Origin: a virus | Direction: 5' to 3' (one strand) | IMG/VR virus record: IMGVR_UViG_3300027687_000057 | Coordinates: 1 to 27,833 of that record | DNA: 27,833 bases | In this document: positions 1 to 27,833 of the stretch, one piece after another | How positions within the stretch are numbered: position 1 is the first letter of the stretch | Layout: each line of letters starts with the position of its first letter | Notes under the pieces: model-generated | Told to the model about the DNA's origin: nothing | The model's input: the letters and a program-made list of their open reading frames with translations, nothing else | Database searches by the model: none | Translations under genes and position numbers: made by a program

Positions 1-2
1 AA

Positions 3-575
3 GCTAATAGTGAATTGATACAGTTAAACAAGCAGTTAAAGGAATCCCTTAGGCAAGTTAACCTAACACCTACTGTGTCTACTCAAGCCTATGACATAGC
101 ATGGAAGAACAATGAGGTACTCAAGGAACAAGTTAAGCATTGGAAGAAACTTGCTGAAGATAACTTCATACAATCTGTAGACGATAGCGAAACTTCTGAT
201 ACATTCAAAAATAAGTATGAGGAGTTACGTAAAACATATGCAGTATTGTTAGAAGATTACAACAGAGATACAGGCAGAGATATATGGAAGAAAAGATATG
301 AGCAGGAGTTAGAAAATGCAGAGTTTTGGAAGAAAGCATATATGGATTATGACCCTAAACCTAAAGGTTGTAACTATACTTTCAGCGAGATACCTAACGA
401 TACTGATGGTCAAGAGTTTGTTGACACCATGAAGAAGTACTTCAATAAAAAATCATACAAGATGCGAGTACGAGGTCAGCACATCAAGCCTGAGTTAAAG
501 GGAACAGGTGCTACCTATTGGGGTCAGAACAAAGATGAATCATCACACATGAGAGTTTACATTGATGTCAAGTGA
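3..575 (+). CDS. Coiled-coil-rich hypothetical protein, 5' end outside window
   Basis: The reading frame is open to the left edge of the window, so the true start is upstream; about 190 residues are visible. The visible part is rich in Lys, Glu, Gln and Trp-Lys-Lys segments (WKKLAEDN, WKKRYEQELENAEFWKKAYM) that look like an alpha-helical coiled coil over roughly the first 120 residues. A more compact C-terminal part ends in VYIDVK. I do not recognise a family and see no catalytic motif or membrane segment. It overlaps the next gene by 11 bases, as expected in a phage early operon. A role as an early phage protein is inference from position only. Confidence 0.7.
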   Translation, partial: ANSELIQLNKQLKESLRQVNLTPTVSTQAYDIAWKNNEVLKEQVKHWKKLAEDNFIQSVDDSETSDTFKNKYEELRKTYAVLLEDYNRDTGRDIWKKRYEQELENAEFWKKAYMDYDPKPKGCNYTFSEIPNDTDGQEFVDTMKKYFNKKSYKMRVRGQHIKPELKGTGATYWGQNKDESSHMRVYIDVK

Positions 576-897
576 AGATGTGTGGAGAGTTAATCCTAAC
601 ATGTTAGTTCCTTACTATCTCATGCACTCATACATCTACTATGAGATTAATGATTCAATCATAACTGACTACGAGTATGATGAGATATGTAAGGAGCTGA
701 AGGATAAGTGGGATGATATCAAACACTACCATAAGCACTTAGTAGATGTTACTGCTTTAGGTGCAGGTACAGGTTATCAAGTTAAATATAACCAACGTAT
801 TGCAAATGCAGCAATTATGATGTATAACAAACATCATGGGTTACCTAGCCCATTAGATAAATTAAATGAGAAAGGAGATTCAATATGGCAACAATAA
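565..897 (+). CDS. LigA N-terminal (Ia domain)-like small phage protein
   Basis: About 110 residues. The N-terminal part has paired Tyr residues followed by INDSIITDYEYDEICKEL. This resembles the Ia domain of NAD-dependent DNA ligases (LigA), where a Tyr-rich helix followed by an ISDxEYDxLxxEL motif binds the NMN half of NAD. The ligase adenylation core and its KxDG lysine motif are absent, so this is not a complete ligase. Similar stand-alone proteins occur in marine phages with unknown function. I chose ATG 565; an in-frame TTG lies directly upstream at 562. The gene overlaps its neighbours on both sides (11 and 13 bases). The ligase-fold resemblance is a motif judgement, not an alignment. 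Confidence 0.7.
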   Translation: MSSEDVWRVNPNMLVPYYLMHSYIYYEINDSIITDYEYDEICKELKDKWDDIKHYHKHLVDVTALGAGTGYQVKYNQRIANAAIMMYNKHHGLPSPLDKLNEKGDSIWQQ

Positions 898-1061
898 ATT
901 TAACTGAAGGAACAGAGATACGAGAAGAACCACACGTGGTAAAACTTAATCAAGTACGTATTGATATACAATTACTGTATGGTAATAAGGACTTTGAAGA
1001 ATATAAACCACTACTACTTAGAGTACTTAAAAATATAGATGAAATATTGGAGGAGATATAA
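885..1061 (+). CDS. Small hypothetical protein (58 aa)
   Basis: A 58-residue reading frame starting MATINLTEGTEI and ending LKNIDEILEEI. It has a good ribosome binding site (AAAGGAG, about 8 bases before ATG 885), which lies inside the end of the preceding gene. The composition is acidic and helical at the C-terminus. I recognise no family. Tight packing between genes with strong binding sites supports a real gene; the function is unknown. Confidence 0.65.
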   Translation: MATINLTEGTEIREEPHVVKLNQVRIDIQLLYGNKDFEEYKPLLLRVLKNIDEILEEI

Positions 1062-1062
1062 A

Positions 1063-1194
1063 ATGTGGCACAGACTAATAGACTTCTTTCATGAAGACTT
1101 TAATAAAAAATATGGTGAGGGTACTAAATATGACCTTGACTATGGTAAACTATTAATAATAGCATTATGTATTTATATAGCATTGGAGGTATAA
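1063..1194 (+). CDS. Small membrane protein (43 aa)
   Basis: A 43-residue frame with a charged N-terminal part (MWHRLIDFFHEDFNKKYGEG) and a C-terminal hydrophobic stretch KLLIIALCIYIALEV, which could be one transmembrane helix with the N-terminus in the cytoplasm. A strong GGAGGAG binding site precedes ATG 1063, and the start follows the previous stop by one base. No family is recognised. Small single-span proteins in phage early regions often modify host membrane functions, but nothing here shows which. Confidence 0.6.
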   Translation: MWHRLIDFFHEDFNKKYGEGTKYDLDYGKLLIIALCIYIALEV

Positions 1195-1195
1195 C

Positions 1196-1450
1196 ATGAC
1201 TAAAAAGAAACCTATAGAAGTTAATAAAATTATAAACTTAAATAAACAAGATACTAAAACACTATTGCAAATATTAGAAAATCTAAGAAGTATAAATGCT
1301 CATACAGATGATAAGTGTCCAATAGACTATGACCAAGTATGTCAGTTAGATGCTATGGAACATCAAATTGCTAACATGGTAGGTGCTGAGGTCAAGTGTG
1401 AACATGACCATTATAGTAGATGGAGTGGTTCATATGAATATAAAACTTGA
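1196..1450 (+). CDS. Small hypothetical protein (84 aa)
   Basis: An 84-residue frame with a GGAGG binding site six bases before ATG 1196. The N-terminus is Lys-rich (MTKKKPIEVNKIINLNKQD). The middle has helical LLQILENLRSINAHTDDKC, and the C-terminal part has Cys and His residues (CPIDYDQVCQLDAMEHQ, KCEHDHYSRW) that could hold a metal. It does not match a zinc-finger family I know. It is the last gene before the promoter at 1447-1475, so it probably ends the upstream transcription unit. Function unknown. Confidence 0.65.
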   Translation: MTKKKPIEVNKIINLNKQDTKTLLQILENLRSINAHTDDKCPIDYDQVCQLDAMEHQIANMVGAEVKCEHDHYSRWSGSYEYKT

Positions 1451-1475
1451 CATGTCTTTAATAACTTAGTATAAG
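1447..1475 (+). promoter_or_regulatory. Sigma70-type promoter for the DUF932/integrase unit
   Basis: A perfect -35 box TTGACA (1447-1452) is followed by a 17-base spacer and the -10 box TATAAG (1470-1475, five of six matches to TATAAT). The predicted transcript start is near 1482, in the only sizeable gap of this part of the + strand. The -35 box lies within the palindrome GACATGTC (1449-1456), which could be an operator half-site. It would drive the DUF932 gene and the integrase behind it. Confidence 0.75.
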
Positions 1476-1494
1476 CAGTTATCAGTTACCCAAC

Positions 1495-1509
1495 GCCACA
1501 TGTTGTGGC
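1495..1509 (+). promoter_or_regulatory. Small inverted repeat in the leader of the DUF932 gene
   Basis: GCCACA-TGT-TGTGGC forms a six-base-pair stem with a three-base loop. It lies between the predicted transcript start (about 1482) and the binding site AAGGAG before ATG 1535. There is no T-run, so it is not an intrinsic terminator. It could act as an RNA element that controls translation or stability, or as a DNA operator; both are inference. Confidence 0.4.
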
Positions 1510-1534
1510 ACAATTAGCAAAAAGGAGAATTAAT

Positions 1535-2389
1535 ATGCCATTAGATTTCGTAACAAACCCACTATTTACTATAGAAGATACCAATTTAGACTTTGGAGTA
1601 GCCTATGAGCCAACTAAAATGGAAGGAAAGAAGTATGTTATCAACGATAGAACAGGAAAATATATAGGAATAGTAGGCGATGGCTTCACATGTGCATCAC
1701 ACCCTACATTTTTTAACTCTATCAAAGAAGTTATACAAGACAATCGTATGCCACATGAGTTGGATAATGCTAACGTTAAAATATCAACGTCTAGGAATGG
1801 TGCATGGGCATTAATAGATGTGACTCTGCCTAATGTTAAGCATACTATCTTTACAGATAAGCATCAGACAGAGATAAGTGAAAGAGTTATAGCCTTACAT
1901 GGTGTTGATGGCTCATGCTCTAATCAAGTATATCAAGGAGCAATAGATATGTTCTGCACCAATGGTCAAATCTCAGGTGACTACGATAAGATACGTAAGA
2001 AGAATACAAGTGGCTTTAACATAGATAGGTTCATACAAGAACTTAAAGATGCTAAGACTAACTTTGATATACGTTGTAGTCAGATGCAAAGATGGGCAGA
2101 AACTCCTGTTAGAGTTAATGTCAAGCTATTACTTGAGGATATCATAAAATCTGATAGGCAGTCTAAGAAGATGTACTCCCTTGCTCAACAAGAGTTCAGT
2201 AAGAGAGGTAAGAATGTCTTTGCATTATACTCTGCTTTCACTAACTACTCGTCATATGCTGATGAAAGAAATGGTTTTAACATTCGTAATACAGGCAATG
2301 ATACTCAAGCAGAAACTATGTGGAAACGTGAGCAGGAAGTTGCCAAATGGATTTCAGCACCACGATTCAAACAGTTATTAGTAGCTTAG
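1535..2389 (+). CDS. DUF932 (phage/plasmid-like) protein
   Basis: A 284-residue protein with the features I associate with the DUF932 family: an N-terminal part with NDRTGKYIGIVGDGFTCASH (the usual variant is 'vg..Y..v'), a central GVDGSCSNQVYQGAIDMFCTNGQ segment and a helical C-terminal half with conserved Trp residues. Family members are common in phages and plasmids, and their biochemical role is unknown. I chose ATG 1535 because AAGGAG lies at the right distance. An in-frame GTG at 1505 would add ten residues, but it falls inside the leader hairpin. The gene is preceded by a strong promoter and followed directly by the integrase, one base after its stop. Confidence 0.85.
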   Translation: MPLDFVTNPLFTIEDTNLDFGVAYEPTKMEGKKYVINDRTGKYIGIVGDGFTCASHPTFFNSIKEVIQDNRMPHELDNANVKISTSRNGAWALIDVTLPNVKHTIFTDKHQTEISERVIALHGVDGSCSNQVYQGAIDMFCTNGQISGDYDKIRKKNTSGFNIDRFIQELKDAKTNFDIRCSQMQRWAETPVRVNVKLLLEDIIKSDRQSKKMYSLAQQEFSKRGKNVFALYSAFTNYSSYADERNGFNIRNTGNDTQAETMWKREQEVAKWISAPRFKQLLVA

Positions 2390-2390
2390 T

Positions 2391-4114: not shown

Positions 4115-5338
4115 ATGGAACTAGCATTAGTAAGAAGTTTAATGGATAAATCGTTTTACGATGAACATAGAGGAGCTAGGTGTCCTGATAGATTATTTAG
4201 TAAGGATACACGAAAGATAAAACAGGCTATAGATAATGCCATGAGTAGATATGAACGTACTGTAACACCTGATGAGATTGAAGCATTGTTTATGGCAAAC
4301 AATCCATCTATGACTACTGCTCAAAAGCAAGCCTATAGTTCTTTGTTTAGACAGATAAAGAATGAGAAACCATTAGGAGAAGATGTAGCACAAGAAGTTT
4401 TGTCTAAACTATTCCAACAGATTGTTGGAGAAGATATTGCTAACATAGGTTTTGATTATGTGAATGGAACACATTCAAGCTTAGAACCTATTAGAAGTAT
4501 ACTAGAATTGTACGGAGATGATTTTACACCTAACCTAAATGTGGAGTGGGATGACATGGATATAGAAACACTATTAGCTAAGAACGACCTAGAAGCACGT
4601 TGGACTTTCAATGTACCTACACTTACAAGACAAGTAGAAGGTATCAATGCAGGTCACTTAATTGAGATAGGTGCTAGACCTAATACAGGTAAGACATCTT
4701 TCCATGCAAGTATGATTGCAGGACCAAATGGTTTGGCTCATCAGGGTGCTAATTGTATTATCTTATGTAACGAAGAAGGAAGTCATAGAGTTGGTGCTAG
4801 ATACTTAACTGCATCAACAGGTATGACTATGAGAGAGATAAAAAATAATCCTACTAAGGCTCGTGACTTGTATGCACCTGTCAAAAACAATATTAAGATA
4901 AAGGATGCAACAGGTAGAGATATGTCTTGGGTTGAGAGTGTATGTAAATCTTATAAGCCTGATGTAGTTATACTAGACATGGGAGATAAGTTTGCTAGGA
5001 CAGGTGGCTTTGCTAGGACAGACGAAGCACTCAAAGCTAATGCAATTTATGCTCGTATGATTGCTAAAGAACATCAGTGTGCTATGTTTTATATGTCACA
5101 ATTATCTGCTGATGCTGAAGGTAAGGTGTTGCTTAATCAAAGTATGATGGAAGGTAGTCGTACAGGAAAAGCAGCTGAAGCTGACCTGATGATTTTAATA
5201 GCTAAGAATCCACCACGACAAGATGAGACAGAAGAAGATTTACAAAGACATTTAAATGTGGTAAAGAATAAACTTACAGGATGGCATGGTGTCGTTCATT
5301 GTAATTTAAATTATCAAATAGGAAGGTATGAAGCATGA
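4115..5338 (+). CDS. Replicative DNA helicase, DnaB/gp4B-like
   Basis: A 407-residue RecA-fold hexameric helicase expected to unwind DNA ahead of the phage polymerase. The N-terminal 150 residues are helical and may mediate primase contact. The C-terminal motor has Walker A GARPNTGKT (residues 186-194), a DnaB-type motif 1a with catalytic Glu in CNEEGS (about 218-223), Walker B DVVILDMGD (D288) and the motif 3 sensor Gln in MSQL (Q329). A basic segment NKLTGWHG near 385 may hold the arginine-finger region. AAAGGAG precedes ATG 4115. The gene overlaps the polymerase start by four bases (ATGA), which implies coupled translation. Confidence 0.92.
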   Translation: MELALVRSLMDKSFYDEHRGARCPDRLFSKDTRKIKQAIDNAMSRYERTVTPDEIEALFMANNPSMTTAQKQAYSSLFRQIKNEKPLGEDVAQEVLSKLFQQIVGEDIANIGFDYVNGTHSSLEPIRSILELYGDDFTPNLNVEWDDMDIETLLAKNDLEARWTFNVPTLTRQVEGINAGHLIEIGARPNTGKTSFHASMIAGPNGLAHQGANCIILCNEEGSHRVGARYLTASTGMTMREIKNNPTKARDLYAPVKNNIKIKDATGRDMSWVESVCKSYKPDVVILDMGDKFARTGGFARTDEALKANAIYARMIAKEHQCAMFYMSQLSADAEGKVLLNQSMMEGSRTGKAAEADLMILIAKNPPRQDETEEDLQRHLNVVKNKLTGWHGVVHCNLNYQIGRYEA

Positions 5339-7347
5339 AATTAACACTTGATGTAGAAAACACTGTTACAAATCGTAATGGTAAGATGCATCTTGACCCA
5401 TTTGAACCTACTAACAAACTCGTTATGATTGGTTGCTTAACAGATACAGGTAAAGAGTATCTATATAGAGACAACTATGATGGAGTGCAGGAGTTATTAG
5501 ATAGTGCTACTATACTGATAGGACATAATATAGTACATGATTTAATGTGGTTATGGGAATGTGGTTTTAACTATGAAGGCTCTGTATTTGATACTATGTT
5601 GGGCGAGTACATATTACAACGTGGTAACAAACAACCTTTATCTCTTGATGCTTGTGCAGAGAGATATGAATTAGAAACACAGAAACAAGATACGTTGAAA
5701 GAATACTTTAAGAAAGGTGTAGGGGTAGATGAGATACCACCTGAAGAATTGGCTAGTTACTTATCAGCAGACTTACATGCAACACAACAACTGTCTGACG
5801 TTATCTATAAAAAGTTAAACACTACTGAGTATAGTTCTTTGATGGATACAGTTATACTAACTAATAAAGTTGCTATAACGTTAGGTAAAATCTATAGAAG
5901 AGGTTTTAAGGTAGATGTATCTAAACTAGATGAGGTTAGAGTTGAGTTTGAGAAAGAGAAACAAGACATAGAAATACGTCTCAACAAACAAGTACGTAAT
6001 CTAATGGGTGACACCCCTATTAACTTAAATAGTCCTGAACAAATGTCTTGGGTTATATATAGTAAGAAACCTATAGATAAGTCTATGTGGTCAAATAACT
6101 TTACTCCTTATATGGATAACTCAGAGTATAAGGAAAAGGTAAATGAGTACTCTAACAATTTATATAAGACACAAGCTGTAAAGTGTTTTGAGTGTAGAGG
6201 AGAGGGTTATATTAGAAAGGTAAAGAAAGATGGAAACTTATACTCTAAGCCAAGTAGGTGTGTTCATTGTAATACTTCTGGCTACTTATTTAATAATACG
6301 AATACGATAGCAGGGTTAAAGTTCACTGCTCCTACTGCTAAATGGGTAAGTAATAGTGGGTTTACCACAAACAAATCCTATTTAGATATACTAAGAAATG
6401 TAGCTAAGAAAAATGATTTGACAGATGCAGTCAATTTTCTGACAGACTTACAGAGGTTGTCAGCTTTAGATACATACCTATCTTCTTTTGTAGAAGGTAT
6501 TAATACTTACGTTAAACCTGATGGTATGCTCCATGTTCGTTTACTACAACATAGAACATCTACAGGTAGGTTCAGTGGTGCTGACCCTAATATGCAGAAT
6601 ATGCCAAGAGGTGGTACGTTTCCTGTCAAGAAGGTATTCGTGTCACGTTGGGAAGGTGGCAAGATACTTGAAGCTGACTTTGCTCAGTTGGAGTTTCGTG
6701 CTGCGGCATATTTATCACAAGATAAGGTAGCAATGGATGAAGTCTCTACTGGATTTGACGTTCACTCATATACGTCTCAAGTTATTAGCGATGCAGGTCA
6801 ACCGACTTCTCGCCAAGATGCGAAAGCACACACGTTTGCACCACTCTACGGAGCAACAGGGTTTGGAAGAACCAAAGCAGAAGCTGAGTACTACGAACAC
6901 TTTACAGAAAAGTACAAAGGCATCAAAGCTTGGCACTCCAGATTGGCTAAAGAAGCTTTAGAGACAGGTATGATAACTACACCATCAGGCAGACAGTTTG
7001 TCTTCCCTGATGTAGAAAGAAAAAGAAATGGTACAGTTACTTATTTTACACAGATAAAGAATTATCCTGTGCAGTCATTTGCTACAGCAGATATAGTTCC
7101 TTTAGTACTAATGCATATAGATAAGCAACTTGACAACATACAGTCTTGTGTGGTAAATACTGTACACGACTCTATCGTAATAGACGTACACCCAAATGAA
7201 AGGGTAATGGTATTGAATATTATTCGTAATACAAATGAGACACTTATTAATTTAATTAATTTAACATTTAAAATAGACTTTAATGTGCCTTTATTATTAG
7301 AAGCGAAAATAGGAGATAACTGGCTTGACACAAAGGATGTGTCGTGA
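5335..7347 (+). CDS. polA: Family A DNA polymerase with inserted DnaJ-type zinc finger
   Basis: A 670-residue replicative polymerase with proofreading. The exonuclease domain shows motif I D6-V-E8, motif II GHNIVHD (D69) and motif III Y142-x3-D146. Polymerase motif A is D448-FAQLEFR. The O-helix is R493-QDAK497-AHT-F501-APLY505-G. Motif C is H611-D612-S613, with Ser where HDE is usual. Between the two halves lies a cysteine module, C284-x2-C287-RGEG and C309-x2-C312, matching the CxxCxGxG pattern of the DnaJ cysteine-rich domain. This insertion is known from HMO-2011-type phages. F501 aligns with E. coli Pol I Phe762. It follows the helicase with a four-base overlap. Confidence 0.95.
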   Translation: MKLTLDVENTVTNRNGKMHLDPFEPTNKLVMIGCLTDTGKEYLYRDNYDGVQELLDSATILIGHNIVHDLMWLWECGFNYEGSVFDTMLGEYILQRGNKQPLSLDACAERYELETQKQDTLKEYFKKGVGVDEIPPEELASYLSADLHATQQLSDVIYKKLNTTEYSSLMDTVILTNKVAITLGKIYRRGFKVDVSKLDEVRVEFEKEKQDIEIRLNKQVRNLMGDTPINLNSPEQMSWVIYSKKPIDKSMWSNNFTPYMDNSEYKEKVNEYSNNLYKTQAVKCFECRGEGYIRKVKKDGNLYSKPSRCVHCNTSGYLFNNTNTIAGLKFTAPTAKWVSNSGFTTNKSYLDILRNVAKKNDLTDAVNFLTDLQRLSALDTYLSSFVEGINTYVKPDGMLHVRLLQHRTSTGRFSGADPNMQNMPRGGTFPVKKVFVSRWEGGKILEADFAQLEFRAAAYLSQDKVAMDEVSTGFDVHSYTSQVISDAGQPTSRQDAKAHTFAPLYGATGFGRTKAEAEYYEHFTEKYKGIKAWHSRLAKEALETGMITTPSGRQFVFPDVERKRNGTVTYFTQIKNYPVQSFATADIVPLVLMHIDKQLDNIQSCVVNTVHDSIVIDVHPNERVMVLNIIRNTNETLINLINLTFKIDFNVPLLLEAKIGDNWLDTKDVS

Positions 7348-7379: not shown

Positions 7380-8303
7380 ATGAATGAAATAACTACAATT
7401 AATGAAGATAACTATGCATCTATGGCTAAAGCTATGGGTCTACCAACACCTTCTGTAAATACACAGAAAAAGGCTAGTCTTTTAAATAGGTTCAGGGTTT
7501 GGCATAATCCTACTATGGGAAAGAAAAAGTTAGATGGTAAGGAGTTTAATACGGAAGTTGTTGAAGGTGGGCTATTTAGACTTGAAGTAGTGGGTGACCC
7601 TTCTACTTTTTACTTTGCAGAGAAGGTAAAGATAAGACCTTTCATGCAAAGGTTTATGTATAAAAGATTTATTATGGGTGTAGGTGATATACCAAATGCT
7701 TATAATAAAACTATTATGGCAGACACTTTAAATATAGATTTAAAAGATGATGCAGGTACATTCAACTGTGGTAAACCAGCAGGGTATGTAGAAGACTTTC
7801 AAGCATTACCTGAGAATACTAAGAAGTTAATTAAATCTATTAAGAGGAACAGGGTAATCTTTGGCATTGCTGAATTAATCAATCCTGTTCAAGGCATAGA
7901 TGGCGAAGAAGTAAAGGACTTACCTAGCTTTCCAATTATATGGGAGATTGATAATAGAGATGCATTTAAATCATTAGGTGATATCTTTACTAAGCTTTCT
8001 AAGATGGAGAGATTACCATTACAACATATGATAAACTTAGATGGTACTACAGGCTTTAGTACTAATAATGGTAGTAAGTATTATATTCCCAATGTTAATT
8101 TAGATTTAACTAAGAAGTTAGATATAGTTGAAGAAGACCATAAAACATTTGGAGACTTTATGGATTGGGTAAAGGTATATAATGATGGCATTGTTAAGAA
8201 GTGGGATGAGAAAGTATCTATAAGGCAGGATGAAGTATCTGAAGAAGATATGAATACTGTTGAAGCTTTTATAGATGTGGAAATGGAAGATGCTAATGCC
8301 TAG
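7380..8303 (+). CDS. Putative single-stranded DNA-binding protein
   Basis: A 307-residue protein of no family I can name with certainty. It sits between the polymerase and two recombination nucleases, where T7-like phages carry gene 2.5 (ssDNA-binding protein). Its C-terminus is strongly acidic (EVSEEDMNTVEAFIDVEMEDANA), the kind of tail by which phage SSBs contact polymerase and helicase. The central region has alternating beta-like segments, such as GLFRLEVVGDPSTFYFAEKVKIRPF, that could form an OB fold. AAAGGAG precedes ATG 7380, and a strong promoter lies just upstream, which fits a protein needed in large amounts. The SSB assignment is inference from tail, size and position. Confidence 0.55.
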   Translation: MNEITTINEDNYASMAKAMGLPTPSVNTQKKASLLNRFRVWHNPTMGKKKLDGKEFNTEVVEGGLFRLEVVGDPSTFYFAEKVKIRPFMQRFMYKRFIMGVGDIPNAYNKTIMADTLNIDLKDDAGTFNCGKPAGYVEDFQALPENTKKLIKSIKRNRVIFGIAELINPVQGIDGEEVKDLPSFPIIWEIDNRDAFKSLGDIFTKLSKMERLPLQHMINLDGTTGFSTNNGSKYYIPNVNLDLTKKLDIVEEDHKTFGDFMDWVKVYNDGIVKKWDEKVSIRQDEVSEEDMNTVEAFIDVEMEDANA

Positions 8304-9162
8304 TATGTCACACCCTGCTGAATTGTCCTTGCATCAGTATATGTCTGATGCTGTTAATGGTAAGTCTACTATGTCAGAAGAAGTTATTGAACAGGTAGGC
8401 AACGATGTAAAGGATGCATTGAGAAAACAATTTGGTGGGGGTCAAAATCGTGGTGACTTTCGCCTACGTATGTCCAACTTAGGCAGACCAACTTGCCAAC
8501 TATGGTTTGATAAAAATAAACCTGAAGTAGCCCTAGATAAACCTAATAGCTTTATGATGAATATGATGTTAGGTGATATAGTAGAAGCTGTGTTTAAAGG
8601 TTTATTAAAAGCATCAGGAGTTAAGTATGAAGAACCTGAACATGTATCATTAGAAGTAGATGGTACAAAAATTAATGGTACTTATGACTTAGTGATTAAT
8701 GATGCAGTTGATGATGTTAAGTCTGCTTCAGCTTGGTCTTATGATAATAAGTTTGAATCTTTTGAGACGTTAAGTCAGGGCGATGCATTTGGTTATATAG
8801 CACAACTTGTTGGCTACGCAAAAGCTGCTAAAAAGAAAGTTGGTGGTTGGTGGGTAGTCAACAAAGCTAATGGCAAGTTTAAATATGTGTCAGCTCAAAA
8901 TGTTGACGAACCTAAAGAGATGAACAAAATCAAAGCAACAGTTCAAAAAGTTAAAGATAATACATTTGAAAGGTGCTTTGAGCCAATAGAGGAGACGTTT
9001 AGAGGTAAGCCTACAGGCAATACTATACTAGGTATAAGTTGTGGGTTTTGTGACTATAGAAATGATTGTTGGGAAAACTTAAAAACTCTTCCATCTGTGA
9101 TGTCTAAAGCACAATTTCCTAAAGTAGTTAACTATGTAGAACTAAATAATGTCTCCTCATAA
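8296..9162 (+). CDS. RecB/Cas4-like PD-(D/E)XK exonuclease with probable Fe-S cluster
   Basis: About 288 residues from ATG 8296. The nuclease core shows GTYD (D131), D140-V-K142 and the RecB-family QLVGY motif (Q170, Y174). Four cysteines are placed as in Cas4 and AddB: C67 before the core, then C249-x2-C252-x5-C258 after it. This suggests a 4Fe-4S cluster clasping the nuclease fold. The likely role is 5'-end resection in recombination or degradation of host DNA, in the slot of T7 gene 6. The start is uncertain: in-frame ATGs occur at 8275, 8290, 8296 and 8305. GGAAG at 8285-8289 favours 8296. The gene overlaps both neighbours. Confidence 0.85.
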   Translation: MPSMSHPAELSLHQYMSDAVNGKSTMSEEVIEQVGNDVKDALRKQFGGGQNRGDFRLRMSNLGRPTCQLWFDKNKPEVALDKPNSFMMNMMLGDIVEAVFKGLLKASGVKYEEPEHVSLEVDGTKINGTYDLVINDAVDDVKSASAWSYDNKFESFETLSQGDAFGYIAQLVGYAKAAKKKVGGWWVVNKANGKFKYVSAQNVDEPKEMNKIKATVQKVKDNTFERCFEPIEETFRGKPTGNTILGISCGFCDYRNDCWENLKTLPSVMSKAQFPKVVNYVELNNVSS

Positions 9163-9607
9163 AATAAGAAGAGAAGCTATAAAGTATGGGTATAGGAGTG
9201 GCTTAGAGCATAAGTTATCACAGTATCTTGACTCGCTTAAACATAAGTATCAATATGAAAGCATCAAGATTGAATGGGAAGACTTAGCCTATCGCACCTA
9301 TACCCCTGACTTTATACTTGAGAATGGTATCATCATAGAAACTAAAGGTAGGTTTCTAGTAGCAGACAGAAGAAAACATTTAGCTATACAAAAGCAACAT
9401 CCTAAATTAGACATTAGGTTTGTATTTACAAATAGTAAAAGTAAATTAAATAAAGGAGCAAAGTCTACATATGAACAGTGGTGTATAAAACACAAATTTA
9501 GATACTACGATAGAATCATACCTGAAGATTGGTTAAAAGAAAAAGGTAAAAACAAACATCCTGAATTTATAAAATTCGTAGGAGCAAAAGTGAGGAGAGA
9601 AAAATGA
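9149..9607 (+). CDS. T7-type endonuclease I (Holliday junction resolvase)
   Basis: A 152-residue protein, close to the 149 residues of T7 gp3. The catalytic set of the family is clear: E20 (SGLEHKL), D54 (YTPDF), E64 and K66 (IIIETKGRF). These correspond to E20, D55, E65 and K67 of T7 endonuclease I. The C-terminal part is very basic (KEKGKNKHPEFIKFVGAKVRREK), consistent with binding branched DNA. The enzyme resolves branched replication and recombination intermediates before packaging and helps degrade host DNA. It overlaps the upstream exonuclease gene by 14 bases and the next gene by four, so the recombination genes form one translationally linked unit. Confidence 0.92.
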   Translation: MSPHKIRREAIKYGYRSGLEHKLSQYLDSLKHKYQYESIKIEWEDLAYRTYTPDFILENGIIIETKGRFLVADRRKHLAIQKQHPKLDIRFVFTNSKSKLNKGAKSTYEQWCIKHKFRYYDRIIPEDWLKEKGKNKHPEFIKFVGAKVRREK

Positions 9608-10411: not shown

Positions 10412-12343
10412 ATGATAAATAACTTTCTACCAACAGACTATCAGAACTTCATAGCACTCTCTCGCTATGCTAGATGGAAAGAAGATGAACAAAGAAGAGA
10501 GAATTGGGGTGAAACTGTAGACAGATACTTTGACTATATGACTACTCATCTTAAAAAGAACCATCAATATACTATGACCAAAGCATTAACTAACATGCTT
10601 AAAGAGCAGATACTTTCTCTTGGTGTAATGCCTAGCATGAGAGCCTTGATGACATCAGGACCTGCTTTAGACAGATGTCATGTAGGTGGTTATAATTGTA
10701 GTTATATACCTGTAGATAGCCCACGAGCCTTTGACGAATGTATGTATGTATTAATGTGTGGTACAGGTGTTGGTTTCTCTGTTGAACGTGAGGTTGTAGA
10801 CAAGTTACCTATAGTAAATGAGCATTTTGAAGACAGCACTACTATCATCAAAGTTGGAGATAGCAGACCGGGTTGGGCAAGAGGATTGAGAGAACTAATA
10901 GCTATGCTATATGCAGGGCAAGTTCCTACATGGGATATGTCAGAGGTCAGACCAGCAGGTGCTAGGCTCAAGACCTTTGGTGGTAGAGCATCAGGACCAC
11001 AGCCATTAGTAGAGTTGTTTCAATTTTGTATTGACATATTTAAGAGTGCCAAAGGTAGAAGACTATTTCCTATTGAGTGTCATGATATCATGTGTAAGAT
11101 TGGTGAAGTAGTTGTAGTAGGTGGTGTTAGACGTTCTGCTCTCATCTCACTATCTAACTTAGGTGATGACCAAATGAGACATGCCAAGTCAGGTCAATGG
11201 TGGGAGAATGAAGGACAGAGAGCATTAGCTAATAACTCTGTAGCATTTAAAGGTAAGCCTGAGATGGGTACATTCATGAGAGAGTGGACTGCATTATACG
11301 AATCTAAGTCAGGGGAACGTGGTATCTTCAATAGACAGGCTGCCAAAGTGAAAGCATTAGAGAATGGCAGAAGAGATGCTGACCATTACTTTGGATGTAA
11401 TCCTTGTAGTGAAATAATACTAAGACCATATCAGTTCTGTAATCTTACTGAGGTGGTAGCACGTTCAGTAGACACGTTAGATATACTCAAAGAAAAGGTT
11501 AGACTAGCTACTATTCTTGGTACATTTCAATCCACTCTTACAAACTTTAAGTACTTACGTAAGATATGGAAAGATAATACAGAGGAGGAAAGACTATTAG
11601 GAGTTTCCCTAACAGGTATATTAGATTGTCCTACACTCAATAATGTATACTATGAATTAGATGACGTACTTGAACAGCTAAGAGCAGTAGCAGTAGAAAC
11701 TAACAAGAAGATTGCTAAAGAATTAGGCATACAACAGTCAACTGCTATTACTTGTGTCAAACCTAGTGGTACAGTTAGTCAATTAGTTGACAGTGCATCA
11801 GGAATACATGCAAGACATAGTGACTACTACGTTAGAACTGTACGTGGAGATAACAAAGACCCACTAACACAGTTCATGAAACAGAGTGGCATACCATTTG
11901 AACCTGACGTTATGAAGCCTGACAGCACAACTGTGTTTAGTTTCCCTATGAAAGCTCCTGATGGTGCAATCACGAGGACAGCTATGACAGCAATAGAGCA
12001 GTTAAAGTTTTGGCTAGTCTATCAAAGACATTGGTGTGAACACAAACCATCTGTTACTATATCCGTTAAAGAAGACGAGTGGATGGAAGTAGGAGCATGG
12101 GTGTATGAAAACTTTGATGAAGTATCAGGCATATCTTTCTTACCGTTTAGTGAGCATACATACCAACAAGCACCTTATCAAGATATAGATGCTGATAAGT
12201 ATGCCAAGTTAATGGAGACTATGCCTAAAGCTATTGATTGGAGTAAACTAAAAGACTTTGAAAAAGAAGATACGACTAGTGGTGGAAGAGAGTTAGCTTG
12301 CACAGCAGATGCTTGTGAAATGGTTGACTTGGTGTCTAACTGA
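10412..12343 (+). CDS. Monomeric class II (B12-dependent) ribonucleoside-triphosphate reductase
   Basis: A 643-residue enzyme that converts ribonucleotides to deoxyribonucleotides with adenosylcobalamin. Its active-site motif is C329-N330-P-C332-S-E334, in which C332 is the expected thiyl radical residue with catalytic N330 and E334. C96 (GGYNCSY) and C343 (QFCNLTE) fit the reducing pair. The C-terminal relay is C630-x4-C635 (LACTADACEM). The layout matches the Lactobacillus RTPR type, but it is about 100 residues shorter than that enzyme, so part of an allosteric or insertion region may be missing. Phages use RNR to recycle host ribonucleotides for their own DNA. It depends on cobalamin supplied by the host. 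Confidence 0.93.
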   Translation: MINNFLPTDYQNFIALSRYARWKEDEQRRENWGETVDRYFDYMTTHLKKNHQYTMTKALTNMLKEQILSLGVMPSMRALMTSGPALDRCHVGGYNCSYIPVDSPRAFDECMYVLMCGTGVGFSVEREVVDKLPIVNEHFEDSTTIIKVGDSRPGWARGLRELIAMLYAGQVPTWDMSEVRPAGARLKTFGGRASGPQPLVELFQFCIDIFKSAKGRRLFPIECHDIMCKIGEVVVVGGVRRSALISLSNLGDDQMRHAKSGQWWENEGQRALANNSVAFKGKPEMGTFMREWTALYESKSGERGIFNRQAAKVKALENGRRDADHYFGCNPCSEIILRPYQFCNLTEVVARSVDTLDILKEKVRLATILGTFQSTLTNFKYLRKIWKDNTEEERLLGVSLTGILDCPTLNNVYYELDDVLEQLRAVAVETNKKIAKELGIQQSTAITCVKPSGTVSQLVDSASGIHARHSDYYVRTVRGDNKDPLTQFMKQSGIPFEPDVMKPDSTTVFSFPMKAPDGAITRTAMTAIEQLKFWLVYQRHWCEHKPSVTISVKEDEWMEVGAWVYENFDEVSGISFLPFSEHTYQQAPYQDIDADKYAKLMETMPKAIDWSKLKDFEKEDTTSGGRELACTADACEMVDLVSN

Positions 12344-12498
12344 TGGTAGAATCACCTGAAATGTTATGGTGGCAATGGTGGTTAATTACTGCTATTTCCA
12401 TCAACACCACTATAAACACTATAGTATTCTTTAAAGGTAGAAAACTACATATAAAAGAAATGCTACACCTTAAACCTAAAACAAAAAAGGAGAAGTAA
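12343..12498 (+). CDS. Small Trp-rich membrane protein (51 aa)
   Basis: A 51-residue frame whose ATG overlaps the RNR stop codon by one base (TGATG). A Trp-rich head (MLWWQWW) leads into a hydrophobic segment LITAISINTTINTIVFF, about one membrane span, followed by a very basic tail (KGRKLHIKEM, KPKTKKEK). The positive-inside rule puts the C-terminus in the cytoplasm. The AAAAAAGGAG at its end provides the binding site of the next gene. No family is recognised. Confidence 0.6.
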   Translation: MVESPEMLWWQWWLITAISINTTINTIVFFKGRKLHIKEMLHLKPKTKKEK

Positions 12499-12912
12499 AT
12501 GGAAAACCTACAGCCTAGCACAGAGAATAGAAAAAAGTTTGACCTAGATTTAGAGTATGGTCAAGTAAGAGAAAAACAAGTAGCTGATATGCTACAAGGT
12601 AAAAAGATTGAAGTTAAGAGTGAGAGAGGTATGTGGCAGAAGACAGGTAACATAGCTATAGAGTTTGAAAGTTATGGTAAACCTAGTGGTATAGCAGCTA
12701 CGGAATCAGACTATTGGTTTCACAATCTATGTGTAGGAGAAGAAACATTCTGCACCTTAGTCTTTGATGTTAAAAGCTTGAAGAAAATTATAGATAAGCT
12801 TGACACAAAGAAGTGGGTAGCAGGTGGAGATAACAAAGCAAGTAAAATGTATTTACTTAACCTACAAAAACTATTTTCTTCAGATGTAATTAAAACCTTT
12901 AAAGGAGTATAA
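12499..12912 (+). CDS. Putative PD-(D/E)XK nuclease-like protein (137 aa)
   Basis: A 137-residue protein whose N-terminal half shows the spacing of a small PD-(D/E)XK nuclease. A conserved acidic helix (FDLDLEYGQVREKQVADML) is followed by I-E38-V-K40-SERG and then a beta strand, GNIAIEFE. The E-V-K fits the (D/E)XK part; the preceding acidic residue could be D15 or D17. The C-terminal half (KWVAGGDNKASKMYLLNL) is not recognised. Similar short proteins are widespread in marine phages, usually unannotated. A DNA-processing role is inference. Its start follows the previous stop directly. Confidence 0.55.
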   Translation: MENLQPSTENRKKFDLDLEYGQVREKQVADMLQGKKIEVKSERGMWQKTGNIAIEFESYGKPSGIAATESDYWFHNLCVGEETFCTLVFDVKSLKKIIDKLDTKKWVAGGDNKASKMYLLNLQKLFSSDVIKTFKGV

Positions 12913-12917: not shown

Positions 12918-13148
12918 ATGAAAAAACAAAGAAATCCAAATCTAAGTAAATATGATGCACCTCTAAAAATACAATTTAGTAGGGGTATGAGTGACTTTAA
13001 GAGGGGTAAAGTCAATAATCCTTACCCTGTTAATACTATGCAAGAACGTGAATGGCTTAGGGGTTTTAACATCTCATATTTTCATACATTAGAAAAGGTT
13101 AAACGCAATGAAACTAGAAGAAGAAGCGAGAAAATACATGCAGGATAA
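12918..13148 (+). CDS. Rmf/CrpP-like small basic protein
   Basis: A 76-residue basic protein. Its core FSRGMSDFKRGKVNNPYP, then a gap and EWLRGF, matches the order of key residues in ribosome modulation factor (Rmf): G-x-x-x-x-x-x-G, an N/C-P-Y turn and a W-x-x-G-aromatic helix. Here these are G23, G30, N34-P-Y36, W46 and G49-F50. Rmf dimerises and silences bacterial ribosomes; phage and plasmid proteins of the Rmf/CrpP group have mixed or unknown roles. The Cys of Rmf before Pro-Tyr is Asn here. The 3' end overlaps the MazG gene by 41 bases. The match is by eye and needs a profile search. Confidence 0.6.
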   Translation: MKKQRNPNLSKYDAPLKIQFSRGMSDFKRGKVNNPYPVNTMQEREWLRGFNISYFHTLEKVKRNETRRRSEKIHAG

Positions 13149-13497
13149 GCTAATAATAACTGAAGTCATAACTCCTGACTTATACGAAAGGTTAGCAGGA
13201 GAGACAGCTATCTTCCCAAAAGAAAAAGCCTTAGAGTATTTAGCTCTAGGCTTGACTAGTGAAGCAGGTGAAGTTGCAGGTAAAGTAAAAAAACTTATAC
13301 GTGATGGAGAAGATAAGGAAGGCTTTGAGTTAAAGAAGATTGCCATATCACACGAGATAGGTGATGTACTTTGGTACTGTGCTATGATGGCTAGAGAGGT
13401 TGGTGTTCCATTGAATACTATTATGCAAGAAAACTTGTTAAAGTTGCATAGTAGGAAGGAACGTGGAACATTACATGGTTCAGGAGATGAACGTTAG
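13108..13497 (+). CDS. mazG: MazG-like nucleotide pyrophosphohydrolase
   Basis: A 129-residue all-alpha NTP pyrophosphatase of the MazG superfamily. It shows LTSE52-AGE55-VAGKVKK and, after a short loop, E83-IGD86-VLWYCAMMA. Together these give the Mg-binding E-x2-E and E-x2-D pattern, followed by a Lys/Arg-rich ENLLKLHSRKERG segment. Such enzymes hydrolyse non-canonical or excess NTPs. In marine phages they have been proposed to adjust (p)ppGpp or dNTP pools; which applies here cannot be told from sequence. It is the last + strand gene and its stop lies one base from the end of the convergent gene block. Confidence 0.9.
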   Translation: MKLEEEARKYMQDKLIITEVITPDLYERLAGETAIFPKEKALEYLALGLTSEAGEVAGKVKKLIRDGEDKEGFELKKIAISHEIGDVLWYCAMMAREVGVPLNTIMQENLLKLHSRKERGTLHGSGDER

Positions 13498-24784: not shown

Positions 24785-25057
24785 TTATTCCCCTGTAAAT
24801 GTATCTGCTGCACTTATAGCTGAATCAATAACTGTAAAGTCCTCTGAACCCCAATCATCTAATGTCTTCTGATGTTTCAGATAACCAACACTACGAGTAA
24901 CTCTTTCTTTCTTCTCGTCATGTGTGAGGTCATTCCCATAGTCATCTATAGTTGCATCATTACCTTTGTTATGGGTAGCAATTACAACATTTATTGTATC
25001 TGCTCCATCTAAACAAGCCTTATGTGCTTGTGTTATTTCTTCTGCTGTTCTAGTCAT
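24785..25057 (-). CDS. Small tail-region protein (90 aa)
   Basis: A 90-residue acidic, helical protein starting MTRTAEEITQAHKACLDGAD with a central NDLTHDEKKERVTRSVGYLK segment. Its last residues, VIDSAISAADTFTGE, closely match the end of the next gene product (VIDAPISVADKITG), although the two bodies are not alike. AGGAT lies before ATG 25057. It sits between two fibre genes with two- and four-base gaps, so a role in fibre assembly or attachment is a reasonable guess. No family name known. Confidence 0.6.
   Translation of the reverse strand: MTRTAEEITQAHKACLDGADTINVVIATHNKGNDATIDDYGNDLTHDEKKERVTRSVGYLKHQKTLDDWGSEDFTVIDSAISAADTFTGE
24788..24832 (-). repeat. C-terminal tail motif, copy 1
   Basis: Encodes VIDSAISAADTFTGE, the last 15 residues of the 90-residue protein. 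It matches copy 2 (24541-24582) in V-I-D, I-S, A-D, T-G. Bases agree in most positions, so it appears to be a duplicated gene end. Confidence 0.6.
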
Positions 25058-25060
25058 TGT

Positions 25061-26962
25061 TTATCCTTCTAATGTTTTAATTCGTGCTTCAAGTGCATCA
25101 TTCTTAGCTGATAATTCTTGTACTGCTTTTACAAGTATAGGTACAAACTTGCTGTACTGTAAACCCATCTGCTTGCCATCACTTGATGTAGATACAGTAA
25201 GGTTTGTTTTATCTGCAATTTTGTAACCAGATGATTCTTCTAATGCGTTTACTTCTTGTGCCTTAAATCCAACATCTAACCAATCTTCTTTATGTGTGCC
25301 ATCTGGTGTCTGTGCGTTTAAATCATAGTCATCTGCGTATTTATCACCATATTTTGACCTCTTATCCCATTTATAAGTAACAGGAGCTAATGCCTTAACA
25401 AAATCTAAACCTACATCTAAATCAGCAAAGTCTGTTTTATCTCTTTGGTCTGATGCTATAGTCCAATCTACTTGAACGTTACATTTTGAAATATTTTCAT
25501 CACCTAACACTATTCTGTTACTTACTGTTGTGTAATTACCATCAGGACTTCCTGTTGTTCCTGCATCATTTCCTAAAAGCAAATTATTAGCACCACTTGT
25601 TAAATTATTTCCTGCTGAATTCCCCATAGCAGTATTACTATTGCCTGTTACAACACCTGCACCACCTGCAGCAATTCCAATAAAAGTATTAGCTGAACCA
25701 GTTTGCATTGCATCACCAGCAAGACTACCAATTATGGTATTGTGAGTTCCTGTTGTTATTGCTCTACCTGCATCATGACCCATTGCTACATTGTAAGAAT
25801 TAGTTGCACTAGTAAAGTTTTGAACTAACAATGTGTTATAACCAATAGCAGTATTTCTACTACCTTTAGTATCAGCACCTAAAGAATTAATCCCCAGAGC
25901 AGTATTGTTGCTCCCCTCAGTCAGAGCATCACCTGCTTGACTACCAATGAGGGTGTTGTTGATGCCTGTTGTTAATGCTGTAGCAGCATTGTATCCAATT
26001 GCCACATTATTAGTGTCTGTAGCAGAGGTAAAGTTTTGTGTTGATAAAGCATTTTTACCAATAGCAATTGTCCTACTTCCTAAAGTATCTGTACTTAAAG
26101 CACCAACTCCGATTGCTACGTTGTGGTCAGCATCAGTAAGGGCATCCCCAGCAAGGTTGCCCATAAAAACATTGGCAGACCCTGTTGTTATTGATAAACC
26201 AGCACTATAACCAACTGCTGTATTATTGGCATCTTGTCCACCTGCGTTATTTTGAGTGAATAATGCTGCTCTACCAATAGCCGTACTTTTTGTACCTGTT
26301 GTTTCAGAACTTAATGCGTTGTACCCAATTGCAATATTCTCAATACCTGTTGTTAGTGCATCTCCAGCGTTTGCTCCAATTAAAACTACACCTGTTGCTG
26401 TTGTTACTGCATATCCTGAACGATACCCTACTGCAACATTATTCATATCGGCATTGCCTGAAGGATTTTGTACAAGAAGAGCTTCAGTTCCTATTGCAAC
26501 TGATTGGTCACCAGCTACGTTACCACCTAAAGCGGCATCTCCCACAGCAACATTTGATGTGCCTGTTGTGTTTGCATCTAATGCTGTATAGCCAACAGCC
26601 GTATTAACACCTGATGTATTTGCAGTTAAAGCGTGTCTACCAATACCTGTGTTATTACTTCCAGTAGTTGCAGTTCCAGCATTTTCCCCCACAAAGGTGT
26701 TATGAGAACCTGTAGTTAGTGCATCACCTGCCGCATATCCAATTAAAGTATTGTTATCCCCTGTACTAATAGCAGTTCCTGCTTCATCTCCTATTGTCAC
26801 ATTGTAATTTCCACCACTTTCTATGGAGTTACCTGCATTGACACCTGCCCTGAAATTAGATGTTCCTGCTGTGGCTGTGATTATGTCACCACTAAATGTA
26901 CCTGTAGTAGTATCAACAGCAGTTGCTATTATATCAGCAGGTTTTTTTCCTATATATGGCAT
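25061..26962 (-). CDS. YadA-head-like tail fibre with C-terminal S74 chaperone (633 aa)
   Basis: A 633-residue fibre. The N-terminus (MPYIGKKPADIIATAVDTTT) is a typical attachment start. From about residue 50 to 470 the protein consists of NTAIGYNA-type repeats (N-x-A/L-I/V/L-G), the pattern of YadA-like trimeric beta-roll heads. The C-terminal S74 chaperone carries S504-DQRDK509-TDF, then WLDVGFKAQEV and a closing coiled coil (LVKAVQELSAKNDALEARIKTLEG). Self-cleavage before S504 is expected. The fibre head would be trimeric and probably binds the host surface. Four tandem 72-residue super-repeats lie in the middle. GGAG lies before the ATG. Confidence 0.9.
   Translation of the reverse strand: MPYIGKKPADIIATAVDTTTGTFSGDIITATAGTSNFRAGVNAGNSIESGGNYNVTIGDEAGTAISTGDNNTLIGYAAGDALTTGSHNTFVGENAGTATTGSNNTGIGRHALTANTSGVNTAVGYTALDANTTGTSNVAVGDAALGGNVAGDQSVAIGTEALLVQNPSGNADMNNVAVGYRSGYAVTTATGVVLIGANAGDALTTGIENIAIGYNALSSETTGTKSTAIGRAALFTQNNAGGQDANNTAVGYSAGLSITTGSANVFMGNLAGDALTDADHNVAIGVGALSTDTLGSRTIAIGKNALSTQNFTSATDTNNVAIGYNAATALTTGINNTLIGSQAGDALTEGSNNTALGINSLGADTKGSRNTAIGYNTLLVQNFTSATNSYNVAMGHDAGRAITTGTHNTIIGSLAGDAMQTGSANTFIGIAAGGAGVVTGNSNTAMGNSAGNNLTSGANNLLLGNDAGTTGSPDGNYTTVSNRIVLGDENISKCNVQVDWTIASDQRDKTDFADLDVGLDFVKALAPVTYKWDKRSKYGDKYADDYDLNAQTPDGTHKEDWLDVGFKAQEVNALEESSGYKIADKTNLTVSTSSDGKQMGLQYSKFVPILVKAVQELSAKNDALEARIKTLEG
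25691..26554 (-). repeat. Four 216-base (72-residue) tandem super-repeats in the fibre head
   Basis: Residues 137-208, 209-280, 281-352 and 353-424 align unit by unit at a spacing of exactly 72. Each starts N-x-A-x-G and has about three head repeats, for example a GSR-x-x-AIG box, a 'QN' insert loop (QNFTSATDTNN) and an AGDAL box. The insert loops differ most (QNPSGNADMNN, QNNAGGQDANN, QNFTSATNSYN), as expected for exposed loops on a conserved scaffold. Confidence 0.85.
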
Positions 26963-26963
26963 A

Positions 26964-27329
26964 TTATGTTATCTCCATTATACTCAACGTACCTGAAAGT
27001 TTATCTGCTACAGAACAATCAATAGTTATTTGGTCAGTAGTTTCTAACACAACCTTGTTACCTGCCATCAGTTCTAAAGCACCACCCACAGGTATAGGAG
27101 CATTTTTTATAACTACACTCGTTCCGTTTGCTGTGTTGTTTGTAACTGCTCTGTTTCCTGTATCACTAACTAAGTTTACTGTAGCTGTAACTTGAGAGGT
27201 ATGTAGGTTGGAAAGAACCAATCCTAACACGATTGCTGTTACTCCTGAACCTGCTGTATACATCACATAGGGTGTACCTGCTGATGCAGGTTCTGCTGCG
27301 AAGTTTACAACTTTAAATGTATTAGCCAT
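26964..27329 (-). CDS. Small beta-rich virion protein (121 aa)
   Basis: A 121-residue beta-rich protein: MANTFKVVNFAAEPASAGTP, then TVNLVSDTGN, NAPIPVGGALELMAGNKVVLE and SVADKLSGTLSIMEIT. Proteins with the same pattern (MANTFK at the start, 'APIPAGGAL' and a 'LSVLEIT' end) are common in marine phages beside fibre genes and have been treated as structural, though I know no firm function. It is the first gene behind the strongest promoter of the window, with AAAGGA before ATG 27329. That fits a high-copy virion or decoration protein (inference). Confidence 0.7.
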   Translation of the reverse strand: MANTFKVVNFAAEPASAGTPYVMYTAGSGVTAIVLGLVLSNLHTSQVTATVNLVSDTGNRAVTNNTANGTSVVIKNAPIPVGGALELMAGNKVVLETTDQITIDCSVADKLSGTLSIMEIT

Positions 27330-27348
27330 TATCTTTTTCCTTTATATA

Positions 27349-27377
27349 ATTATACTCAATATTACTTTATTTGTCAA
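27349..27377 (-). promoter_or_regulatory. Perfect-consensus sigma70 promoter for the virion/fibre operon
   Basis: Read on the - strand, TTGACA (27377-27372), a 17-base spacer and TATAAT (27354-27349) match the bacterial sigma70 consensus at all 12 positions. The predicted start is near 27342, which is within the ribosome binding site AAAGGA (27343-27338), so the leader would be only about 13 bases. It lies in the 60-base gap between two virion genes and can drive the - strand genes from 27329 downwards. Confidence 0.85.
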
Positions 27378-27389
27378 GTAAAATATGTA

Positions 27390-27833
27390 CTAGCCAAGTG
27401 CAATAGCCAAGGCTGTGGCATTATCGTCTGTTACTGCTGTTAGTACACTCACATCCATTCTCTTGAGTGTGCCACCATCACTTACTAATAATTCGTCATC
27501 GTTAGCTAAACCTGAAGTTAGTGCAGTCTGTCCTGATATTGTGTTATCATTTAACATAGAACCTTCTACTGCATTTGCAGCAATAGTCACAGCACCTGTG
27601 TTAGCTATTGTAACATCACCACTTATAGCAACCTCTTGGAAGCTAGTTCCATCAGCTACAAGTATCTTAGTGGATGTAACATCAGGCATAATTAACTGAG
27701 TGCCTATAGTTACAACTCCTGTTGTTGTAATGTTTCTAAAACCTGTGTAGTCTTTGTTTGAATCTAGTATAACTGCCTTAGAAGCTATAGCTGTACCAAC
27801 TGCTGTTGCACCTAAGTCTAATGCATTTATCTC
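27390..27833 (-). CDS. Fibre-like structural protein, N-terminus outside window
   Basis: The frame is open to the right edge of the window, giving at least 147 residues. Visible from the edge are LDLGATAVGTAIASKAVILD and GTQLIMPDVTSTKILVADGT, then repeated short beta segments (GDVTIANTGAVTIAANAVEG, NDDELLVSDGGTLKRMDVS). The 'ASKAVILDSNKD' box followed by G-x-x-T/V-I-A repeats is typical of shafts of marine phage fibres or tail-associated proteins. It ends with TAVTDDNATALAIALG. An internal ATG at 27689 exists, but the open frame upstream continues the same protein style, so I treat the gene as cut by the edge. Confidence 0.75.
   Translation of the reverse strand, partial: EINALDLGATAVGTAIASKAVILDSNKDYTGFRNITTTGVVTIGTQLIMPDVTSTKILVADGTSFQEVAISGDVTIANTGAVTIAANAVEGSMLNDNTISGQTALTSGLANDDELLVSDGGTLKRMDVSVLTAVTDDNATALAIALG

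Follow-up and report, generated by a model that had tools for sequence, protein, structure and literature searches.

What keeps every GATC out of 27.8 kb of phage DNA? The question is raised by IMG/VR virus record IMGVR_UViG_3300027687_000057, of which positions 1 to 27,833 were analysed (hereafter the window; a complete linear IMG/VR record of 27,833 bases, in a record class that often comprises fragments). We propose that the answer lies in a gene of the window that we call c36. It very probably encodes a GATC-specific nuclease, to which the phage would be immune through erasure of the site from its own genome. The word desert and the gene are located as follows.

1 to 27833, both strands: GATC-free window, exact count 0
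12499 to 12912, plus strand: c36, candidate GATC-specific PD-(D/E)XK nuclease of 137 amino acids (PHROG 13596, 'unknown function')
12488 to 12492, plus strand: AGGAG, likely ribosome-binding site of c36, six bases ahead of the ATG

A sequence-only reading had reported that GATC is missing from the window, and the exact count bears this out: 78.2 occurrences are expected from trimer counts (z -10.7, a strong under-representation) and 92.7 from base composition. When codons are swapped synonymously inside genes, leaving proteins unchanged (200 rounds over 30 called coding sequences, 27,105 bases), the expectation is 59.1 +/- 5.5, and the lowest of the 200 shuffles held 43. The loss is specific, as that reading also held, because GANTC (42) and GTAC (103) are retained; CTAG occurs 106 times. 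The absence of GGCC, reported with less certainty, is equally real (0 versus 18.1 by trimers or 14.7 +/- 3.4 by synonymous shuffles). The same shuffles reveal further deficits in CCWGG (0 versus 7.6), GGNNCC (0 versus 15.9), and TCGA (3 versus 27.6 expected). CCAG/CTGG is found 42 times versus 129.8 expected, and milder deficits include AATT (152 versus 226.7).

Across phages, the presence of c36 and the absence of GATC are linked almost perfectly. A tblastn search detected c36 homologues in 44 phage records. All 13 named carriers examined (HMO-2011, HTVC019P, HTVC104P, HTVC011P, HTVC031P, Gjalp, HTVC025P, C72C1, CRP-143, part of XacN1, HTVC115P, Eistla, and C75C1) are GATC-free, with 78-184 sites expected in each, whereas all 16 named non-carriers examined, none of which is among the 44 records, hold 60-292 sites each. 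The non-carriers comprise ten HMO-2011-type phages and six others, namely HTVC010P (126 observed, 142 expected), HTVC119P (100 and 113), HTVC200P (60 and 101), CRP-125 (69 and 186), S28C10 (128 and 132), and part of Atu_ph07 (154 and 225). Uncultured phages follow the same pattern. Close carriers in IMG/VR (80 loci, 937,437 bases) contain 2 GATC versus 2874 expected, both within the first 510 bases of one contig, so that 79 of the 80 loci have none. Among Pelagivirus polymerase relatives, c36 is present on 74 of 80 contigs and GATC occurs once versus 1846 expected, the lone site lying at contig base 19; the remaining six contigs stop at the polymerase, short of the c36 position, and are GATC-free too. 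Searches with the XacN1 and C72C1 versions of c36 brought up distant carriers, which have 11 sites versus 1981 expected over 82 loci (zero in 79 of them). Pooled, 256 sequences of carrier lineages with GC contents of 0.26-0.50 hold 14 GATC versus about 8,330 expected. They fall into 18 groups that share no 1 kb blastn similarity (the six cut Pelagivirus contigs counted in), and 14 of the 18 groups are wholly GATC-free. The c36 family is common to phages of SAR11, SAR116, and Roseobacter. As a c36-free control, 106 loci carrying c51, a gene discussed below, hold 4734 GATC versus 5271 expected.

In one carrier group the trimer-based expectation is low since GAT and ATC are themselves scarce; by composition, about 330 sites are expected in eight of its loci and five are seen, all in contig L483. 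The c36 lineage of L484-L488, L493, L496, and L503 has its ATC and GAT trimers halved (683 versus 1383), beyond the loss of GATC.

Might c36 and GATC loss simply have been inherited together in a few clades, with no further meaning? The independent pairs within the HMO-2011-type tree taken by itself are too few for significance, as this account would have it, but the recurrence of the link over 18 dissimilar groups, 14 of them wholly GATC-free, and the comparison of 13 carriers with 16 non-carriers without one exception make it the least probable of the explanations considered. The gene also stands out when no candidate is chosen beforehand. In a screen of 32 genomes, in which all gene clusters present in at least 3 genomes were compared with the avoidance of 19 words, 15 genomes avoid GATC, 15 use it normally, and CRP-125 and G143 are intermediate. 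c36 was detected in 13 of the 15 avoiders and in none of the 15 normal genomes; the next avoider-only cluster reaches 7 genomes. One of the two leftovers, C72C1, has a longer c36 that was missed by the length rule and matches PHROG 13596, which leaves G157 as the sole avoider without c36.

The sequence-only reading had attributed the desert to long selection by a GATC-cutting restriction system or by GATC-dependent host functions such as Dam or SeqA, and took it as a clue to host range. Selection by a GATC cutter fits the data, yet a phage-encoded enzyme accounts for the evidence better than host restriction, Dam, or SeqA. Among phages isolated on a single host strain, those with c36 lack GATC and those without it have the word. 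On HTCC1062, six carriers including HTVC019P have no GATC versus 149 in HTVC033P and 126 in HTVC010P; on HTCC7211, HTVC104P and HTVC115P have none versus 100 in HTVC119P; and on FZCC0023, CRP-143 has none versus 164 in CRP-1, 167 in CRP-2, and 69 in CRP-125. Nor is GATC depleted in SAR116-type bacterial DNA, which uses the word normally (one GATC per 287 bases in 15 bacterial loci, 9 of them titled SAR116 or Puniceispirillum). The absence of GATC is therefore a poor clue to the host.

That reading had also proposed looking for GATC enzymes in candidate hosts, where we found none of the families sought. The Dam family (PF02086) was detected in 0 of 18 SAR116-type genomes, reached via msmA relatives (11 of the 18 titled SAR116 or Puniceispirillum), and a search of 136 genomes of the order gave no DpnII-type (PF04556) match, other GATC methylase families not having been sought. 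Host-driven loss of GATC is a known pattern: one study states that each of 46 phages with a matching enzyme in its host under-uses the word (PMC6286503). If GATC-cutting systems of the hosts had purged the site, with c36 a mere passenger of such phages, the partial depletion of CRP-125, the five c36-free HMO-2011-type contigs that have no GATC (described below), and the avoidance of other words without a known gene would be explained. The same-strain contrasts (0 versus 149 and 126 on HTCC1062; 0 versus 164 and 167 on FZCC0023), the undepleted SAR116-type DNA, the negative PF02086 and PF04556 searches, and the coupling of the gene to GATC absence in 18 groups over a GC range of 0.26-0.50 all oppose this origin, which we regard as improbable.

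What kind of protein is c36? It matches PHROG 13596 (E 1e-42), as do all ten of the carrier proteins scanned; the annotated HTVC011P fragment does so only weakly (E 0.047). In HTVC011P the c36 reading frame is intact with a TTG start (L315:13747-14121); the annotated gene, gp16, covers just the 3' part. No Pfam family matches c36 at E <= 1, and hence not PF04556, the DpnII family; sequence searches of NCBIfam and the PDB gave no family match, the single PDB row (E 0.2) being a non-nuclease. Residues E25, E38, and K40 are invariant across 24 aligned sequences, giving an acidic residue followed by a (D/E)-x-K motif, and the E-x-K is retained in HTVC011P and in the distant L483 and L502 versions. 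An AlphaFold2 model built from 24 sequences (pLDDT 80) places E25 on a helix that is followed by a strand with E38-V-K40. The early rows of a Foldseek search with this model include Eco15I-N, PvuII, MspI, EcoRV, and I-Ssp6803I (E 0.12-0.6), with unrelated rows interspersed, and VIA lists Eco15I-N (Z 4.6, the best), Rai1/DXO, IspDF, PvuII, RecU, NhoI, MvaI, and Sau3AI (Z 2.6). These PDB matches are weak, though mostly to PD-(D/E)XK enzymes; the absence of an enzyme from such match listings carries no weight. A nuclease of restriction type is suggested by the modelled fold together with the invariant E-x-K. An hhalign comparison of c36 with c51 shows no relation, from few sequences.

If c36 were instead a protein that changes or binds GATC without cutting it, by editing, marking, or repression, the word could have been lost by mutation or through interference with phage functions. 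Cleavage is indeed deduced and the fold matches are weak. Yet none of the one-step neighbours of GATC shows enrichment in the carriers of both groups compared (carrier folds of 0.63-1.07 in Pelagivirus and 0.95-1.43 in the HMO-2011-type set), and no editing signature was seen. The invariant E-x-K and the modelled fold are also suggestive of a nuclease. A non-nuclease role seems, if anything, a shade less probable than host restriction.

No methylase was seen among the neighbours of c36 in the window, where part of the open reading frames were scanned, and none is annotated in HMO-2011 (65 features, 50 of 55 kb) or HTVC019P. In C75C1, c36 and a C5 methylase gene overlap at the end of the latter (L324:16131-17923), and this genome is still GATC-free; the overlap is possibly a trace of restriction-modification ancestry. 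Homologues of c36 were detected in 0 of 385 bacterial genomes of the class, a weak negative from a search without positive control, and no plasmid bearing the C75C1 version was found.

The surroundings of c36 in the window are rich in genes of nucleotide and DNA metabolism.

10412 to 12343, plus strand: ribonucleotide reductase, upstream of c36 (clusters with HMO-2011 gp18, annotated ribonucleotide reductase)
13108 to 13497, plus strand: MazG-like pyrophosphatase, downstream of c36 (clusters with HMO-2011 gp21, annotated MazG-like)
8275 to 9162, plus strand: PD-(D/E)XK exonuclease-like protein (PF12705, E 6e-06)
9149 to 9607, plus strand: Phage endonuclease I (PF05367, E 4e-47)
5335 to 7347, plus strand: DNA polymerase, the query used to find relatives (full-length identity of 64-65% to its HMO-2011 and CRP-345 counterparts)

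Besides the reductase and MazG next to c36 here, the neighbours are a polymerase and an exonuclease in HTVC019P, and an exonuclease and the C5 methylase in C75C1. We envisage c36 as a small PD-(D/E)XK enzyme akin to restriction endonucleases; in the window it has no methylase gene beside it. It would cut GATC-bearing DNA, most likely the host chromosome and perhaps the DNA of competing phages. Given one GATC per 287 bases in the 15 bacterial loci, a GATC cutter would shred such a chromosome into recyclable pieces and leave the phage intact; these pieces would supply the neighbouring exonuclease, reductase, and MazG functions. The phage would be spared as selection had purged every GATC from its own genome.

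Placement of the window among HMO-2011-type phages, also suggested by the sequence-only reading, is upheld by the polymerase identity and by the primase, helicase, polymerase, reductase, and MazG clusters shared with HMO-2011. Elsewhere in the window, positions 562-897 encode a stand-alone protein resembling the N-terminal domain of NAD-dependent DNA ligase (PF22745, E 2e-16). An ARAGORN tRNA-Asn call of 89 bases (772-860, minus strand) lies inside this reading frame, is probably false, and was dropped. A putative fibre protein (25061-26962, minus strand) contains many short repeats of the T-G-x-x-N-T-A-I-G type.

Among HMO-2011-type relatives, GATC varies widely. All 80 uncultured relatives retained from the polymerase search are GGCC-free, and 53 of them are GATC-free; the other 27 have from few to near-expected GATC and are scattered over several places of the polymerase tree. 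HMO-2011 has 0 GATC versus 156 expected, and counts run from 149 to 292 in the other ten cultured phages of the group. This spread, from zero to near-expected in several places of the tree, indicates that the loss is maintained by selection and reversible. c36 was detected in 6 of 58 low-GATC HMO-2011-type sequences versus 0 of 34 others, with most contigs stopping short of the locus. Where its status is known (22 sequences), all 6 carriers have zero GATC, and the 16 non-carriers comprise 5 with zero and 11 with GATC. L030, which lacks c36, is 96-98% identical over 10.5 kb to L024, which has it, the alignment skipping c36; the L030 record holds 6 GATC versus 71 expected. Other sequences without c36 hold 0 of 52 expected (L007), 2 of 36 (L008), and 25 of 76 (L013, whose whole record has 64 of 164). 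The pattern looks like a slow return of GATC once c36 has been lost.

Several observations weigh against a self-immune c36 nuclease. Five HMO-2011-type contigs cover the locus and have neither c36 nor GATC (L007, L031, L050, L072, and L079). The L079 record, of 55.3 kb, has 0 GATC versus 145 expected, and no candidate replacement enzyme was seen by eye in the list of open reading frames of these 55 kb; recent loss of c36, a different enzyme, or selection exerted by co-infecting carriers may lie behind its lack of GATC. Within the HMO-2011-type tree taken alone, 2-3 independent pairs agree, 0 disagree, and 2-3 tie, which is too few. Some carriers do have GATC: L502 (5 versus 15 expected) stands as an exception, and L483 has 5 versus 9, all beyond 5.9 kb, with its c36 at the opposite end; L498, L203, and L244 have 1-2 sites at contig tips. 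CRP-125 is depleted without c36 (69 versus 186), and therefore other pressures on GATC exist. The other deserts of the window (GGCC, CCWGG) are matched by no gene cluster in the screen of 32 genomes. No Foldseek match reaches E <= 0.001 (best 0.12), and the best VIA Z is 4.6. The tie between c36 and GATC rests on comparison, from which we infer cleavage, GATC as the site, and the timing and target of the enzyme in the cell. The first uptake of c36 by a GATC-full phage is a further difficulty for this model.

The five c36-free contigs would be accounted for if c36 acted mainly on GATC in competing or resident phages rather than in the host, so that co-infecting carriers kept c36-free phages GATC-free. 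A precedent is NixI, a nickase of the satellite PLE that acts on the rival phage ICP1 (PMC8844924). This exclusion of competitors has the GATC cleavage step in common with the degradation of host DNA. However, c36 sits amid reductase, MazG, polymerase, and exonuclease genes, as expected for nucleotide recycling, and GATC-rich phages persist on the hosts of carriers. Exclusion as the main role is thus rather unlikely, though it deserves more weight than any other alternative, and host DNA remains our preferred target for c36.

Is c36 the only gene of its kind? In CRP-345, CRP-1, CRP-3, and CRP-212, the slot after the reductase that c36 occupies elsewhere is taken by c51, found at the following positions.

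L082: 18823-19275, c51
L083: 17955-18401, c51
L087: 13036-13464, c51
L091: 13161-13583, c51
L341-L446: further loci with c51

CGCG does not occur at all in the 106 loci with c51 versus 795 expected (0 of 227 in 80 loci and 0 of 568 in 26 GC-rich loci), nor in the c51 phages CRP-345, CRP-1, CRP-3, CRP-212, CRP-235, and SIO1; the absence in SIO1 was predicted before counting, though after the sequence had been obtained. Phages without c51 can be rich in the word (78 versus 105 expected in CRP-738; 26 occurrences in CRP-207), and c51 is the best cluster for CGCG in the screen of 32 genomes. No Pelagibacter phage is among the 20 records with c51. CGCG is nevertheless scarce in several c51-free phages, including Pelagivirus loci (1 of 294 expected), CRP-603 (0 of 35), CRP-2 (0 of 39), and CRP-143 (1 of 47), so the pairing of c51 with CGCG loss is likely and not settled; the contrast is strong only between the GC-rich set (0 of 568) and CRP-738 (78 of 105). 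In c51, D42, E57, and K59 are invariant in 17 sequences, giving the D...(D/E)-x-K pattern. Its model (pLDDT 84) matches Hjc with a VIA Z of 10.2 over 103 residues and NhoI with 8.8, and is clearly predicted to have a PD-(D/E)XK fold.

For other words, no avoider-only cluster covers most avoiders among the 32 genomes and 19 words, with the exception of GCTAGC, for which such a cluster is found in 7 of 9 avoiders with only 3 normal genomes for comparison. In the same screen GCWGC, CACTG, CATCC, and CATG form deserts, each with its own distribution. CCAG/CTGG is nearly gone in one HMO-2011-type subclade (6 versus 673 expected in 19 contigs), where no gene was found. GANTC is rare or absent in some pelagiphages (L233, L315-L318, and L323), including HTVC025P (0 of 61), HTVC011P (1 of 64), and Eistla (2 of 49).

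Phage nucleases that degrade host DNA include EndoII and EndoIV of T4 and the product of T7 gene 3. T4 protects itself by base modification; c36 phages would rely on sequence. PD-(D/E)XK Type II restriction endonucleases (Eco15I-N, PvuII, MspI, MvaI, Sau3AI) resemble c36 in being small, with a helix and then an E-x-K strand, although the model aligns to them weakly; a 4-base palindrome is implied as the c36 site. Unlike them, c36 is phage-borne, has no adjacent methylase in the window, would be tolerated through site loss, and belongs to no Pfam, NCBIfam, or PDB sequence family. Burkholderia phage KL3 also carries a restriction enzyme (gp45-gp47) but is said to guard its DNA with an EcoRII-like methylase, whereas c36 phages lack the site; among the roles that phage nucleases may play, the source discusses exclusion and the breakdown of bacterial DNA (PMC3091744). 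T5 A1 shreds host DNA and spares the phage, like the role envisaged for c36 (PMC13250531). NixI likewise is a nuclease borne by a mobile element and directed at DNA other than its own, in its case that of phage ICP1 (PMC8844924). A comparable word desert is that of GANTC in pelagiphages (marine Autographivirinae), which was discussed as linked to methylation or past defence; in its available text that paper does not mention GATC loss or a phage nuclease, and 'endonuclease' occurs 0 times (PMC9516812). GATC, restriction, methylase, and methyltransferase have 0 occurrences in the main text of a study of the HMO-2011 group (PMC9038755). No description of a phage nuclease made self-immune by site erasure was found in the literature searched, whose coverage leaves out preprints and most subscription papers. 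Restriction enzymes paired with methylases in phages and host-degrading phage nucleases are already known; word erasure as the safeguard would be the new part.

Tentatively, and at a little short of even chances, c36 and c51 may be the first two members of a wider class, phage-borne 'orphan restriction enzymes' that occupy exchangeable slots by nucleotide-metabolism genes and are made safe by genome-wide word erasure without a methylase. More gene-word pairs would make erasure-protected nucleases a class of their own. If this is true, phage deserts credited to host restriction (GGCC, CCWGG, GANTC, CATG, TCGA) would be marks of the phages' own weapons, and the targets of uncharacterised genes could be read from genome sequence alone. 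An oddity of base composition has here led to a function that can be tested, for a gene family that had none assigned. If self were told from non-self by word erasure rather than DNA modification, a restriction-type enzyme would be following another logic. Site avoidance in a phage need not reveal restriction by its host, a caution that applies to host prediction and to past interpretations such as that of the GANTC deserts of pelagiphages.

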